From Bacteroides sp. (GTDB lineage Bacteria > Bacteroidota > Bacteroidia > Bacteroidales > Muribaculaceae): a DNA stretch of 57,893 nucleotides. Below, in pieces: positions 14,436 through 29,932 of the stretch. Position numbers and translations under genes: made by a program. Location of the stretch: positions 1 through 57,893 of the forward strand of contig JAAVCX010000039.1 in the NCBI GenBank assembly GCA_014802105.1, read 5' to 3'. The notes beneath the pieces were generated by a model that searched no databases, was not told the origin of the DNA, and saw nothing but the letters and a program-made list of their open reading frames with translations. Within the stretch, counting starts at the first letter, position 1, and each line of letters starts with the position of its first letter.

Positions 14436-15937
14436 ACACGGCTCTGTCATTTAAACTTAAAATAACGACATAATCTCTCTTATCCGGTTCAGTACGAATC
14501 GGGTAAATTTTTATATTTGTATTTCAGCAAGTTATCTTTTTCTTGAATTTCCATTTTTTCATTTTTGTGCTAAAAAGCGAATAAGTCGAGAAAAGCTCAT
14601 GGAGATATATCTCATCAGTTCTGCGATGCCTTTGTTCTTATCGGCTTTCTTTTTGCGCCGTCCTCTCCATGTGGAAAATATGGAACAGACAATTCTTTGA
14701 ATAGTATCGAGGTTGCGGGCAGCTCTTGACGACTTCCGTTTAATCTTGTCTTGTAAAAGATTTACGTCAAGCTCCGAATGCATACTCTCTATAGACCAAT
14801 GGTTCCGCACTATTGCACCCTGCCTTGGCGTGGTCGTAGGCAGGCTATTCACATAAAGCCGTTTTTCAGAAGTACATACTCCTGTAGACTTTTTTATTGT
14901 AAGTGATTTATATTCAATGATTGTCATATTTTCGTCCCATTTTTCCTTGTCGGCGATTATTTCAAGGCCATCATATATGTTGTAGGTTCTGGTTTCGATT
15001 CTCCCATGACCAAGTTCAGGACCCTCTGTATATGAATATAACGGTCTATGTTCCTTAAGCTTATCCTCCACCCCATATCGCAGCGAGCGTTGATTAGCTT
15101 TGAGTTCTATTAGAAAATCTCCGCCTTTGTTCCTTATCTTATCGATAATATCCTTCTGCATCGACATGGCATCTGCGGTGATATTCTTTCCTGATATGTC
15201 AATCTTGTCGATTAGTATTGGGACAGCTTTTATCTCGTTGCTCTTTTCCCGGCATGCTTCGGTTGCGATTGTAATGCCTGTGTTGAACGAATAGGCAGAT
15301 ACGATGTCAGTATTACGCACGTTTTCTTGAACGGTGCCACGCTGTGCGTTGCCGTCCACACAGATTATTTCCCTGTCACGGCATACATTAAGCAGTTCAT
15401 CATGGAAGTTCGCAGTAAACTCCTGCATCTTAAATAGTCAATACCGTTCTCTATCCGGCAAAGGGTAGCCTCCGAGGGTATCCCATTCTTCAGCATACCC
15501 ATTTTACTGAATTAATTTTGATTGTGTCTGCCGAACGCTATTATATCGGCACGTCCGAGTATCATCAGAATGATGATGTCATTGAGCCGGTGGCGGATGT
15601 TTCCTTTGTTGCATCTACGAAAATCCGGGACTGATGCGGAAAAATTCATCAGATGATAAAGTATACTCCCTTTTGTAGGGATTTATTTTGTATATTTGTA
15701 CTGTGATTGAGCATCGTATCCTCACTCGAACGGACTTGGTTAAGTGGTCTTGTTTTATTCATAACTGTTTGAGTTTTACCTTTTAAGTTACGAATAATTC
15801 TCCACTTAATCAAATTTTTACAGTGCTTATTTCACTTATAATCAAATAATTAACCTTATCTAAGGCCTACCCACCTCCCTCTATAAAATAGCAAAATCTT
15901 TGAATATGCGTGCCAATCTAAAATGAAAGAGCCGTGT
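14436..15937 (-). mobile_element. ISAs1-like insertion sequence, copy 1 (defective)
   Basis: The element is about 1.5 kb and ends in imperfect inverted repeats ACACGGCTCTGTCATTT (14436-14452) and AAATGAAAGAGCCGTGT (15921-15937). It carries one transposase gene on the minus strand, broken by an in-frame stop and a frameshift. I found no clear target-site duplication. Family call: conserved ISAs1 transposase blocks (CVDGNAQRGT, ITADAMSMQKDI, GDFLIELKANQ, HGRIETR, NHWSIESMHSELDV). Confidence 0.85.
14559..15649 (-). pseudogene. ISAs1 family transposase, disrupted
   Basis: The intact C-terminal frame (14559-15428, 289 aa) covers the DDE catalytic region. The N-terminal domain is readable upstream from ATG 15649 (MNFSASVPDFRRCNKGNIRHRLNDIIILMILGRADIIAFGR). 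It is interrupted by a TAA at 15512-15514, continues as MGMLKNGIPSEATLCRIENGIDYLR, and then shifts frame just before MQEFTANFHDELL near 15430. A one-base loss would explain the shift. Intact length would be about 365 aa, normal for the family. As it stands it should not make full-length transposase. Confidence 0.85.
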
Positions 15938-15965
15938 GAATTATAGCCCTCATAATGATAAATCT

Positions 15966-15997
15966 ATTGACAAGCATTTAAAAATTTTGTAACTTTG
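15966..15997 (+). promoter_or_regulatory. Promoter of structured RNA copy 1
   Basis: -7 TAACTTTG (15990-15997) with a -33-like ATTG (15966-15969) 20 bp upstream. It lies 30 bp inside the IS right end and directs transcription into the structured RNA. Confidence 0.75.
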
Positions 15998-16002
15998 CAG
16001 TC

Positions 16003-16319
16003 GCAGACCGCATCGCAGAAGCCCGGTCATGGGCAACGCGGGAGGGTCTGCTGACATTTTTGGAAGCGTTTACTCGACGCTCTTTCTTGACGATTAGAAA
16101 CTTCGCAACTTTCAGGTATAGTCAAGAATGTAGCAAACAGTAGATGCCTTGTGGATATGTTTATATCGCTAATATCAAGCGCGGGAGTGTTTGTTTTTTG
16201 GCGTTTCTATACATATTCTGCGTGAGGCTTCTGCAAGTTTGCTCGTTCAACTATACCGGGCAATGCGAAGGCCTCTAATCGTGGAACGAGCAACAGTACG
16301 GCTCTCACGCTTTCTTTTT
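16003..16319 (+). ncRNA. Structured RNA, copy 1 (unknown class)
   Basis: This ~317-nt element is homologous along its length to the minus-strand copy at 29555-29895. A long-range helix GCAGAAGCC (16015-16023) / GGCTTCTGC (16226-16234) closes a ~200-nt domain that includes a short AGCGT/ACGCT hairpin. Immediately 3' is a terminator-like structure: GCGTGAG (16220-16226) / CTCACGC (16304-16310), enclosing GTTTGCTCGTTC (16237-16248) / GAACGAGCAAC (16284-16294), then a T-rich tract (16311-16319). The segment AGCAAACAGTA (16132-16142) nearly repeats the 3' arm AGCAACAGTA (16289-16298), so either could pair with the 5' arm. It could be a leader-type switch or a free RNA. RNase P and tmRNA signatures are absent. 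Confidence 0.75.
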
Positions 16320-16365
16320 ATAACCTAAAGCCAAAGAGGTGAGTCCGGCGGCATTTATAAACTCA

Positions 16366-16628
16366 ATGAATTTTCATCAAGCATTAGATGTTGCAAATAA
16401 AAAAGAACAACTTGTCGGACACCTAAAAAAAATGGCGCCGTTCTTGACGAAGTAATAATTGCGCCAACCGATGATGAGAAATATCAAGGCTTTATTAAAG
16501 CCTATGTAGACACTCTTGACGCGCAAAGGGCTATAGCCCCGTATATTAAGTCTGATGTGATCGTATTAGGCGTTTTTGATAAATATCGCATACGACGAGA
16601 TAATTTGTTGAGCATCTCTGAAATTTAA
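16366..16628 (+). pseudogene. Small conserved-looking protein, frameshifted (~87 aa)
   Basis: ATG 16366 opens MNFHQALDVANKKEQLVGHLK and hits a stop after LTK because the A run near 16425-16432 has 8 rather than 9 bases. With one A restored the frame reads NGAVLDEVIIAPTDDEKYQGFIKAYVDTLDAQRAIAP...VIVLGVFDKYRIRRDNLLSISEI and stops at 16628. No signal peptide or membrane segment; acidic. I do not recognise the family. It lies 47 bp downstream of the structured RNA and 13 bp upstream of the LRR protein gene, so all three may share a transcript. Real mutation, slippage or sequencing error cannot be told apart. Confidence 0.6.
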
Positions 16629-16641
16629 TCCCAGTTATAAT

Positions 16642-18393
16642 ATGAAACAGGTTATACTAATTCTTATGCTTCTGTACTGCTGTATGCTGTGCAAAGCACA
16701 ATCCACTTCATTGACAGTCGATAATCAGACACCCGGTTGGCTTTCAAGTAAGATCAATTATGGAGATCAACAAACAGTTGTAAATCTCACCATTACAGGG
16801 TACGTTAATCAGATGGATCTCAATTTTATAGGAGATCTTATGTCAAAACACAATCTTTCTGGACATCTAAATTTAACGGATGCAGAAGTCGTTGACGTAA
16901 AATTCAAGGACTCTCCTACTTCAATTGGAGGATCCCTATCTATGTTTAGCTTAGACCAAAAGGTTTCTCTTACTCGATTTTCAGTACCCAAATCCATATC
17001 TTCGATTTCTCCTTACCTTTTGGCACGAGTGCAGGCGGACACACTTGATTATGGCGGTAATAGATGTGAAACTCTTACGAAGTTTCTTATAACAAATAGA
17101 TATTACGGTACTAACTACTGCCCTAAAGTACTAATCCTAAGAGATGGCGTAACAAAGATTGAGGTATTTGGATCGGATGAAGGGAATGAAAAGGAACTGG
17201 AAACCATCATTTTTCCTGAAAGTTTAGATAGTATAGGTAAAAACGCATTCAGTGGTTGTACTAATTTGAAGAATATTAACTTGCCGAATAATATCCAAAT
17301 AATTGACGAAGGTGCTTTTGCAGGTACTTCGTTTTGTCCTGATACTTTATATTTACCATCCGCCCTTAAAACATATAACACAAATTCGTTTCCAATAAAA
17401 AACGGTCAAACAATAATTTTAGGAAGCAACGTAAGTAATTTTAATAACCGTTCTTGGTATCTTAAAAAAACTACAAATGCTACCTATATTATCAATAGAG
17501 TAGTGCCTCCTACTTTTACAAAAGGAGCAAGTGGCAACTCATATAGTGACGGAAAAGAACTATTGGGCTGCACATTATACGTCCCAAGCGAGGGCTATTC
17601 AATGTATATTGACCCTGAATATAACTCAGTAGGAGGAGCAAGTGGAACGTGGTCAGGATGGAGTAATCCATATTCCCATGCAAAGGTAAAAACAATCCAT
17701 ATCCCTGTGGAGAATATCACTATCTCACAAATTCAGATAACACCATCAAGTGTAAGGATTCCTGTAGGGAAGACGATGAATCTAAATGTCACTATTTCCC
17801 CTAATGATGCCACCCACAAGATACTCAAATGGTCATCTACCAATCCGTCAGTAGCTATCGTATCAGAAGATGGGATGGTGTCTGCCATCTCTAATGGTGA
17901 TGCTATAGTAATAGCTTCCACTCAAGACGGTTCTAACCTTTCTGCAACTTGTCAAGTAGAGGTTTTTACTGAGGCAGTTCTTGTAGAGAGTATCAATCTT
18001 GATAGTACAAATATTAATGGTCTTGTAAATGACACCTATGCGATTGAAGCCATTGTACTTCCTACAAACGCCACAAATAAGAATATAAAATGGACAACTT
18101 CAGACGAGAATATAGCAAGTGTAGATAATGGAGCGGTAAAATTATTAGCTCCCGGAACAGCCATAATTACAGCTGAAGCTATGGATGGTTCTAATGTTAA
18201 GTCTGAATGTACCGTTATCGTATCTCACGTAGCAGGCCTCGATTTTATATCTATGGATAAAGAGTCGTATATAAAAATATACAATCTCAGTGGCTATCTG
18301 ATATACGAGGGTATTTACTCTGAAGCAAGTCTTTCGCCTGGATTCTATATTGTTATCTGTAATGGTGTAAGTTATAAGACAAAAGTAGATTGA
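16642..18393 (+). CDS. Secreted protein with leucine-rich repeat and two Ig-like (BIG2) domains
   Basis: The protein has 583 aa with signal peptide MKQVILILMLLYCCMLCKAQS. Residues ~170-260 hold a BspA-type LRR_5 segment (TIIFPESLDSIGKNAFSGCTNLKNINLPNNIQIIDEGAFAG). Two BIG2-like domains follow (~350-430, ITISQIQITPSSVRIPVGKTMNLNVTISPNDATHK...WSSTNPSVAIVSEDG; ~440-520, VESINLDSTNINGLV...WTTSDENIASVDNG). The C-terminus (IKIYNLSGYLIYEG...LSPGFYIVICNGVSYKTKVD) resembles a type IX secretion sorting domain. It is AT-rich compared with its chromosomal neighbours and sits between two IS copies, suggesting acquisition. A surface or adhesion role is inferred. Confidence 0.8.
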   Translation: MKQVILILMLLYCCMLCKAQSTSLTVDNQTPGWLSSKINYGDQQTVVNLTITGYVNQMDLNFIGDLMSKHNLSGHLNLTDAEVVDVKFKDSPTSIGGSLSMFSLDQKVSLTRFSVPKSISSISPYLLARVQADTLDYGGNRCETLTKFLITNRYYGTNYCPKVLILRDGVTKIEVFGSDEGNEKELETIIFPESLDSIGKNAFSGCTNLKNINLPNNIQIIDEGAFAGTSFCPDTLYLPSALKTYNTNSFPIKNGQTIILGSNVSNFNNRSWYLKKTTNATYIINRVVPPTFTKGASGNSYSDGKELLGCTLYVPSEGYSMYIDPEYNSVGGASGTWSGWSNPYSHAKVKTIHIPVENITISQIQITPSSVRIPVGKTMNLNVTISPNDATHKILKWSSTNPSVAIVSEDGMVSAISNGDAIVIASTQDGSNLSATCQVEVFTEAVLVESINLDSTNINGLVNDTYAIEAIVLPTNATNKNIKWTTSDENIASVDNGAVKLLAPGTAIITAEAMDGSNVKSECTVIVSHVAGLDFISMDKESYIKIYNLSGYLIYEGIYSEASLSPGFYIVICNGVSYKTKVD

Positions 18394-28828: not shown

Positions 28829-29506
28829 TTATTCTCCTCCGCCCACGGTGGTCTGCAGTTCCTCAATCATAGGCTCAAACGAGCGGAGCACACGGTCATA
28901 ATTCTTGTAATCCCTCTCGTTATGACTGTCTTTATCTTTTATCTGTACTACTATTCGTGCTCTATATGAAGTAACCTCATCGTCGGTGAATGTCATGCGT
29001 ACTTCGAGTCGGGTTCTTACTATCTGATTTTTGAAATGAGTCAGACGCCACGAAGTTTTGATCCATCCCGCTGTCTTATCCCTGACCTCTATATTATCGA
29101 AATAGTTGGTGCAGACGCTCATCAGACGTTTCCAGATCACATCTTCCGACATGCCCTTGCGGCATCTGATCTCCATCCATTTGTTGGCGAGATCCACACC
29201 GTCATCTCCTCCGATCGATGCAGCCATAGCCTCATCTTCGGGCAGATTGTAAAGCACGGTCGACTTAGGATTGGACTTGAGCAGACGATAGGTGCGTGTA
29301 ATGTAGCCGGGGGCTTCGAGCTTGACTACATAGAAATCAGTGTTTTTGTCAAACTTCACCTGATACTGCCCGGTGCCCACCATCTGACCGTCAATGTAGA
29401 TGTTTGCTGTCTCGGGGATCACGTTGATGGTGATTTTCTTGGCGGCATTGGCACCCATGAGACCAAGCGACAGAATCACATACAGGAACAAGAGAACTCG
29501 TTTCAT
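28829..29506 (-). CDS. Exported PEGA-domain protein
   Basis: The protein has 225 aa with signal peptide MKRVLLFLYVILSLGLMGANA. Residues ~22-95 form a PEGA-like domain (KKITINVIPETANIYIDGQMVGTGQYQVKFDKNTDFYVVKLEAPGYITRTYRL), a small beta fold found in surface-layer and periplasmic proteins. The rest (ANKWMEIRCRKGMSEDVIWKRLMSVCTNYFDNIEVRDKTAGWIKTSWR) is unknown to me. It is the first gene of a two-gene operon, and its 5' leader is the second structured RNA (3' end ~50 bp upstream of the start), so RNA-based control is likely. Confidence 0.75.
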   Translation of the reverse strand: MKRVLLFLYVILSLGLMGANAAKKITINVIPETANIYIDGQMVGTGQYQVKFDKNTDFYVVKLEAPGYITRTYRLLKSNPKSTVLYNLPEDEAMAASIGGDDGVDLANKWMEIRCRKGMSEDVIWKRLMSVCTNYFDNIEVRDKTAGWIKTSWRLTHFKNQIVRTRLEVRMTFTDDEVTSYRARIVVQIKDKDSHNERDYKNYDRVLRSFEPMIEELQTTVGGGE

Positions 29507-29554: not shown

Positions 29555-29895
29555 TAAACGAAAAGCGTGAGAGCCTTACCGTTTGCCCGTTCCGCTGTCT
29601 GAGGCCTTCGCAAAGCCCATCGTAGTAGAACGGGCAAACATGCAGAAGCCTCACGCAAATATGTATATACAATGCCGCGACTGATGCTCACGCATCAACC
29701 AAGGCACAGATATAACATATCCACCGGCATCTACCGTTTGCCTCATTCCTGACTACGATTAGAAAGTTGCGAAGTTTCAGACAGCCAAGAAAGAGCGTCG
29801 AGTAAACGCTTGTAAAAAACATGTATCGGGCAAAGCCTGCCCTCTGATGCACCCCTCCCACTTTATCCCTGGCCGGGCTTCTGCAGGTCGGTTGC
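29555..29895 (-). ncRNA. Structured RNA, copy 2 (leader of the PEGA operon)
   Basis: This ~340-nt element is homologous to copy 1. The closing helix is TGCAGAAGCC (29876-29885) / GGCTTCTGCA (29641-29650). The terminator-like stems are GCGTGAG (29650-29656) / CTCACGC (29565-29571) and GTTTGCCCGTTC (29628-29639) / GAACGGGCAAAC (29581-29592), followed by a T-rich tract on the minus strand. GGCAAACGGTA occurs twice, upstream (29732-29742) and in the 3' arm (29577-29587). Against copy 1, both occurrences change GG to AG and CGG to CAG, and the 5' arm changes to match. TGATGC(GTGA)GCATCA is an extra hairpin here. Most likely a cis-acting switch or a stand-alone RNA of unrecognised class. Confidence 0.75.
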
Positions 29896-29900
29896 GATGA

Positions 29901-29932
29901 CAAATTTACATTATTATTATGACACTTGCAAG
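29901..29932 (-). promoter_or_regulatory. Promoter of structured RNA copy 2
   Basis: On the minus strand, -7 TAAATTTG (29901-29908) with a partial -33 (CTTG, 29929-29932) 20 bp away. Same relative position as the promoter of copy 1. Confidence 0.65.

Follow-up and report, generated by a model that had tools for sequence, protein, structure and literature searches.

A leader RNA family of Bacteroidales that looks like an undescribed cis-acting switch with an unusual internal junction

Transcriptional riboswitches and attenuators are 5' leaders in which a terminator-like stem with a T tract is combined with mutually exclusive strands. In the case of cyclic di-GMP (c-di-GMP) riboswitches, a single leader class precedes numerous genes of a genome that are unrelated to each other and often encode surface or exported proteins. 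In CopA-CopT, two hairpins meet by their loops and extend into inter-hairpin helices, also in a leader region, and the title of Kolb et al. (2000b), as it stands in the reference list of PMC10798244, speaks of a four-way junction and side-by-side helices. In this study, we analysed a window of 57,893 nucleotides, i.e. the whole stretch of DNA considered here (Bacteroides sp., Muribaculaceae in GTDB; assembly GCA_014802105.1, contig JAAVCX010000039.1, positions 1 to 57,893), in which one RNA element occurs twice. Both elements are members of one RNA family of ~360 nt, aligning along the whole element, and the family looks like an undescribed cis-acting RNA switch of Bacteroidales with an unusual internal junction, as judged from comparison of its copies.

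The element resembles riboswitches and attenuators in its 5' leader position, its terminator-like stem with T tract and its mutually exclusive strands. However, no Rfam class matches it and no common pathway was seen among its downstream genes. With c-di-GMP riboswitches it shares the pattern of one class before many genes, but size and fold are different, and the window has no Rfam match for them. The CopA-CopT pair consists of two separate RNAs acting in trans, whereas the two hairpins studied here are parts of a single leader and covary in cis, helices of 8-9 bp flanking a 7-bp loop-loop helix on both sides. This arrangement, a loop-loop helix between two inter-hairpin helices, is present here as base pairing only and not as a three-dimensional fold; pairing between two molecules of one leader copy is possible. 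By analogy, the resemblance bears on how the leader would work and not on class membership. The Bacteroidales-1, Bacteroides-1 and Bacteroid-trp motifs are structured RNAs of the same taxonomic group for which the table of Weinberg 2010 (PMC2864571) gives Rfam accessions, and the leader has no match in Rfam 15. Bacteroides-2 and GUCCY-hairpin have no Rfam accession in that table and thus stand outside the Rfam comparison.

The first-pass annotation of the window had described the two elements as homologous, each lying between a promoter and a terminator-like stem plus T tract. Both points held. A sequence-only family model built from 22 copies (copy 1 included, copy 2 left out) found the two elements, and the flanking signals were present in each, the promoters being read directly:

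15967..15997, plus strand: promoter of copy 1, with TTG at 15967-15969 and TAACTTTG at 15990-15997
16001..16312, plus strand: modelled core of leader copy 1, 246.2 bits, E 5.5e-75, for a copy used in model building
29901..29931, minus strand: promoter of copy 2, with TTG at 29931-29929 and TAAATTTG at 29908-29901
29563..29892, minus strand: modelled core of leader copy 2, 197.7 bits, E 3.7e-60, for a copy outside model building

The same search of the window returned two weak matches on the reverse strand as well, of 16.6 and 15.7 bits, where the 3' parts of the elements are near-palindromic. Single-sequence folding gave z-scores of -7.3 and -5.6 for the two copies, and the genome of origin (a 2.08 Mb assembly of 77% completeness) contained 9 model matches, partial ones among them; the element is therefore more than a chance fold. 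The first-pass annotation knew of no class with such features, and Rfam 15 gave none. Over the whole window at curated thresholds only two tRNAs and no match for the leader family were found, the six matches at E<=10 in 15800-16500 all scored far under their gathering thresholds, and 20 loci holding further copies gave only a tRNA. An explanation by a known family was rejected after these searches. No earlier description was found in the open-licence PubMed Central literature, searched through titles and abstract openings, with long result lists in part and with preprints and supplements outside the scope. Fremin and Bhatt 2021 (PMC8040213) reported thousands of candidates that are listed in supplements, and a fragment of the leader may be among them.

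The leader was found in 25 of 27 genomes of the genus sample, with a maximum of 15 matches in one genome, and in 181 of 198 genomes and 28 of 30 genera of the family sample. Matches were obtained in 39 of 295 genomes of the order sample (part of them weak), in 5 of 295 genomes of the class sample (the genome of origin, three order mates and one weak match) and in 1 of 296 genomes of the phylum sample, namely the genome of origin, with 0 of the 295 others; in these wider samples, diverged copies can escape because filters were stricter and few candidates were scored per genome. An exact-pattern scan of named genomes gave at least 116 stretches. Among the 80 matches listed, 63 were labelled Muribaculaceae, Muribaculum, Paramuribaculum, Duncaniella, Amulumruptor, Porphyromonadaceae or Bacteroidales, 8 Bacteroides sp. 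and 9 otherwise. Leader-bearing contigs L133, L175, L148, L150 and L182 are titled Pseudoflavonifractor, Lachnospiraceae, Paenibacillus or Sporosarcina, and these labels of metagenome-assembled genomes are probably wrong. Two genomes of the same genus, G005 and G013, both listed as 99% complete, had no leader match, and the leader seems dispensable there.

For the covariation analysis, 144 distinct near-full copies were aligned and all column pairs were tested against a home-made tree-based null with 20 replicates. In this blind test 13 pairs reached E=0.00 and one E=0.10, with the next pair at 0.90. The 14 strongest pairs were canonical in 91-99% of copies and all fell within HI (5), KL (4) and HII (5), the long-range helices between hairpin A (~16085-16127) and hairpin B (16239-16293), KL running from loop to loop. 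The interior of the terminal hairpin had been taken for a plain loop; it pairs instead with the upstream hairpin via these three helices, which hold the strongest covariation of the element and were absent from the first-pass annotation. Helix-wise pair counts for the whole pseudoknotted set used 101 copies, which come from 100 of the 144 loci. The helices of copy 1, with the share of cells paired and the pairs with both-sided change, were as follows:

16006..16028, plus strand: 5' hairpin P0 (GACCG/CGGTC), whose loop contains the P1 5' strand; ~90% paired, 4 of 5 pairs both-sided, 28-39 of 101 copies gapped
16015-16023 with 16226-16234, plus strand: P1 (GCAGAAGCC/GGCTTCTGC); 97.1% paired, 3 of 9 pairs both-sided
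16066-16074 with 16139-16147, plus strand: P2; 97.5% paired, 3 of 9 pairs both-sided
16085-16091 with 16121-16127, plus strand: stem of hairpin A; 96.9% paired, 4 of 7 both-sided; inner hairpin hpA, 16098-16100 with 16110-16112, 93.0% and 1 of 3
16239-16248 with 16284-16293, plus strand: stem of hairpin B; 97.8% paired, 7 of 10 both-sided; inner hairpin hpB, 16258-16261 with 16271-16274, 99.8% and 1 of 4
16090-16098 with 16274-16282, plus strand: HI (A to B), consensus columns 119-123/302-306; five pairs at E=0.00, 97.8% paired, 6 of 6 counted pairs both-sided
16101-16107 with 16264-16270, plus strand: KL (loop A with loop B); four pairs at E=0.00, 99.2% paired, 5 of 7 both-sided
16115-16122 with 16250-16257, plus strand: HII (A to B); 91-94% canonical, with four pairs at E=0.00 and a fifth at E=0.10
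16132-16138 with 16237-16243, plus strand: ALT helix (AGCAAAC with GTTTGCT); 95.3% paired, 4 of 7 both-sided; for three of the pairs, about half of the copies have a gap
16064-16069 with 16307-16312, plus strand: AT, an antiterminator-like helix (AAGCGT with ACGCTT); 98.6% paired, zero both-sided change
16220-16226 with 16304-16310, plus strand: terminator-like helix T, followed by the T-rich tract TTTCTTTTT at 16311-16319; 95.7% paired over 6 counted pairs, 2 of 6 both-sided

Over the whole pseudoknotted set 96.4% of cells were paired and 38 of 67 pairs showed both-sided change, which none of 500 shuffles equalled, and slid versions of the set were paired in only 30-44%. The weakest cells lay in HII, where the sequence-only alignment wanders. 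In the model-based alignment HII had both-sided change in 6 of 6 counted pairs, and 90% of its cells were paired save for one pair at 68.3%. Among the 144 copies there were 97 distinct strand pairs for HI, 75 for HII and 20 for KL. Three loci of one genome of another family, L235, L237 and L239, had been part of neither model nor alignment: a script gave A:B helices of 9, 7 and 8 bp in L237, those of L239 were read by eye since the script pattern missed them, and L235, which had no search-pattern match, was not judged. The opposite strand was rejected as the functional strand because the sense strand has G-U in many helix cells (one pair of stem B has 35 U-G), where its complement would have C-A.

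The corresponding helices of copy 2, with HI and HII changed on both sides relative to copy 1 and KL identical, were as follows:

29785-29777 with 29602-29594, minus strand: HI of copy 2
29774-29768 with 29612-29606, minus strand: KL of copy 2
29759-29752 with 29626-29619, minus strand: HII of copy 2
29742-29736 with 29639-29633, minus strand: ALT helix of copy 2 (GGCAAAC with GTTTGCC)
29561..29656, minus strand: terminator-like helix of copy 2 (29656-29650 with 29571-29565) plus a T run of four

A three-way concerted change between the copies had been reported, and it reads in both sequences as described: AGCAAAC, GTTTGCT and, in the 3' arm, GAGCAACAGTA of copy 1 stand against GGCAAAC, GTTTGCC and GGGCAAACGGTA of copy 2. 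These strands belong to two proposed folds. In fold X, P1, P2 and the hairpins A and B, each enclosing its inner hairpin, are combined with the terminator-like helix, behind which the T tract follows; X is itself pseudoknotted because P1 and T cross. Fold Y is nested and rod-like: it contains HI, KL, HII, ALT and inner pairs, and AT closes it by occupying the 3' arm of the terminator and the beginning of the T tract. ALT is incompatible with the outer half of stem B. The 5' strand of P2 likewise has alternative partners, local (16065-16069 with 16077-16081) or AT; the local hairpin of the AAGCGT strand was 99.2% paired with covariation no higher than in shuffles. At three columns, the shared strand (consensus columns 263-269) fits both of its exclusive partners, in 129 of 135, 133 of 144 and 132 of 141 copies. 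In minimum-energy folds of 143 copies, HI appeared in 137, KL in 140, HII in 118, ALT in 125, AT in 103 and T in 2. With nested constraints, Y was below X in energy in 133 of 143 copies, a comparison tilted to Y since the pseudoknots of X go unscored.

These patterns suggest that the leader is a cis-acting bistable attenuator of Bacteroidales, to which we give a probability of roughly 0.5. Comparison among the copies shows the family itself, its leader position, the conserved complementarity of the helices of both folds and the docking pair described below. The proposed course of events, whose kinetic steps we infer throughout, would be as follows. Transcription would begin at the promoter that travels with the element, and hairpins A and B, with their complementary loops, would form during transcription so that the loops meet. 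If fold X is kept, the terminator-like stem and T tract would stop RNA polymerase. If strands are exchanged, a rod would arise in which the arms of A and B pair together (HI, KL, HII) and the AGCAAAC strand captures one arm of B (ALT); the AAAGCGT strand would then pair with the terminator 3' arm and the T tract start (AT), and polymerase would read into the gene. The 5' domain (P0/P1) may tip the balance between the folds. After readthrough, a hairpin just 5' of the start codon would dock onto the strand beside the terminator, possibly tuning translation. We likewise infer that termination is conditional, in which direction the switch acts, and that one signal is common to a regulon rich in exported proteins.

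Several observations weigh against this reading. In the blind test the three-way columns fell short of significance (E 14.5, 34.2, 50.0 and 85.9). AT had no both-sided change in the helix-wise count and little covariation; its pair 92:338 was paired in 146 of 158 raw counts, yet only 7 of these were T-A or G-C. The number of both-sided pairs in ALT plus AT was reached by 29 of 500 shuffles, although their number of cells with both-sided change exceeded all 500 in the helix-wise count. The T run behind the stem was shorter than four or missing in 45 of 144 copies, the terminator was missing from the nested minimum-energy fold in 141 of 143 copies (where pseudoknots go unscored), and the unconstrained minimum-energy fold of copy 2 lacked AT. 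Furthermore, A and B overlap with HI, KL and HII by only ~2 nt, so that coexistence instead of alternation is possible. The alternative pairing is conserved among the copies, with covariation evidence that is moderate for ALT and weak for AT. The terminator/antiterminator switch proposed in the first-pass annotation is thus partly supported, by the strand shared by two exclusive partners and by the antiterminator-like helix in the majority of minimum-energy folds. At GGCAAAC/GTTTGCC, both-sided change was seen in the helix-wise count of ALT but no significant covariation in the blind test.

The element had been thought to end at the T tract, but it extends further; in both copies a hairpin that pairs back follows the tract:

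16300-16304 with 16341-16345, plus strand: docking pair of copy 1, GGCTC with GAGTC in the loop of a hairpin at ~16330-16352, by eye
29575-29569 with the hairpin at ~29541-29520, minus strand: docking pair of copy 2 (row L005), GGCTCTC with GAGAGCC, hairpin by eye

The docking strand (GGCTCTC and variants) sits just ahead of the terminator 3' end, and its partner is a hairpin loop situated after the T tract and ahead of the start codon. The docking helix scored at least 5 in 126 of 147 copies. Own pairs had a mean score of 5.83, versus 5.04 when leaders and tails were swapped among copies (best of 50 swaps, 5.20), and this control is conservative because the consensus is common to many copies. 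The pair was also preserved despite replacement of its sequence (CAGACTCCC/GGGAGTCTG, AGATTCC/GGAATCT). The stem of the downstream hairpin was barely above shuffled tails (5.47 versus 5.18). Since the downstream hairpin pairs back to the element, the transcript is probably meant to continue beyond the T tract, and an RNA that only serves termination was disfavoured. Because ribosomes of Bacteroidia reportedly do not recognise Shine-Dalgarno sequences (PMC9976891), the G-rich loop was not taken as a ribosome site.

The position of the element is that of a leader, because a promoter box lies ahead of it and the distance to a start codon behind it is narrow. A TAnnTTTG box occurred just 5' of the element in 134 of 144 near-full copies, and the upstream TTG in 103 of 144. 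An open reading frame (ORF), with its start codon allowed up to 140 nt beyond the modelled end, followed 151 of 161 copies with enough downstream sequence, and its start lay at a median of 53 nt past that end (quartiles 48 and 63.5). The genes behind the leader are diverse. Scanning 105 of the 137 available proteins gave 46 Pfam families, the commonest being LRR_5 (BspA-type leucine-rich repeats) in 14 of 105, and no common pathway was seen among these 105; second-messenger classes would not require one. Export was judged with a crude signal-peptide test. Among genes of at least 150 amino acids, 62 of 85 behind leaders appeared exported, versus 161 of 410 control ORFs of the same size and loci, an enrichment whose size is rough since the test was home-made and the control ORFs were unverified; for leader genes of every length the proportion was 85 of 147.

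What separates the attenuator from the nearest alternative is whether the two sets of helices exclude each other. It is unlikely, though worth taking seriously, that A and B simply coexist with HI, HII and KL as a static pseudoknotted double-crossover (two four-way junctions with kissing loops), a rigid scaffold that would serve, e.g., mRNA stability or as a platform for a protein or ligand. Stems A and B, hpA and hpB are conserved alongside HI, KL and HII, the helices abut nearly exactly with KL inside the loops of hpA and hpB, and junction column 117 co-changes with 308 on 16 branches, which speaks for a static fold. However, such a fold leaves unexplained why strand 263-269 is also complementary to 159-165, and why the AAGCGTTTACT strand has competing partners. 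A more far-reaching and less likely version of the bistable attenuator would be a switch by internal strand exchange, in which recognition between the loops of two hairpins formed during transcription would lead over a four-way junction and branch migration to a rod that unmakes the terminator, one signal governing many exported-protein genes jointly and copies having their own A:B 'key'. Most copies do carry their own, with 97 distinct HI strand pairs in 144, and they therefore need not pair with one another.

The T tract is where the other alternatives part from the attenuator. If it were an unpaired linker, the hairpin between it and the start codon, docked or free, could govern ribosome entry. 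Such a translational switch would suit the docking pair that survives sequence change, the fairly constant distance to the start codon and the 45 of 144 copies with a T run of fewer than four directly behind the stem; but a run of at least four T was retained behind the stem in the other 99 (within 3 nt of it; at least three T in 122, and at least four anywhere within 40 nt around the 3' end in 131), as a terminator predicts, and the gain of the downstream stem over shuffled tails was slight, which makes this reading rather improbable. If the RNA instead ended at the T tract and acted in trans, the adjoining genes being incidental, its own promoter, the T tract, the many copies per genome and the varied downstream genes would be expected. 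Pairing that runs on beyond the T tract and the ORFs behind nearly all copies, half of them starting within 48-63.5 nt where up to 140 nt was allowed, speak against it, and we regard a trans-acting noncoding RNA as quite unlikely. A search of the own genome for a trans partner of the conserved 16-base strand with up to 2 mismatches yielded no lead: it gave element copies only (5 sites), and the reversed-sequence control gave 3. The varied downstream genes and the patchy occurrence in the order and class samples could also fit a promoter-leader cassette that spreads and is maintained chiefly by duplication and transfer and not by regulation. That is very improbable, since strong compensatory change in several helices points to selection on the RNA fold, and copy 1 had no blastn match in either the plasmid or the phage collection, while the exact pattern met a single contig in the viral collection. 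A plasmid or phage origin was rejected on the same results. Contig L234 (IMG/VR, classed viral) has one leader copy ahead of a 75-aa ORF.

The long-range helix P1, which had been proposed as closing an aptamer-like domain, is real where it is present. Pairing over at least 7 bp was possible in 79 of 97 judged copies (4 of the 101 were unjudged), over 5-6 bp in 15 and over less in 3; a P1 of 7 bp was thus missing in 18 of 97. Since its pairing varies between copies, P1 is a candidate input part. In L188, L176, L160, L101, L102, L189 (4210-4448) and others, the stretch from promoter to core is short or swapped for other sequence with the core kept, as if input modules had been exchanged.

The genes next to the two window copies were as follows:

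16366..16628, plus strand: first small ORF behind copy 1, frame interrupted
16642-18393, plus strand: gene for a BspA-type leucine-rich-repeat/Big_2 protein, directly 3' of the interrupted ORF
28829..29506, minus strand: gene behind copy 2, for a protein that the crude test scores as signal-peptide-like and that matches PEGA weakly (E 0.00078, 19.7 bits, cut-off 20.8)

In the first of these, the opening frame ends early and a longer open stretch goes on in another frame past an A run; this could reflect a worn gene, a sequencing error or programmed frameshifting. The leucine-rich-repeat type of the second is the family found most often behind leaders elsewhere.

Muribaculaceae are common rodent-gut bacteria. 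If the reading given here is true, one undescribed RNA class would stand before many genes in most sampled genomes of this family, favouring exported proteins, and for a group in which few regulators are known it would open a way into gene control.
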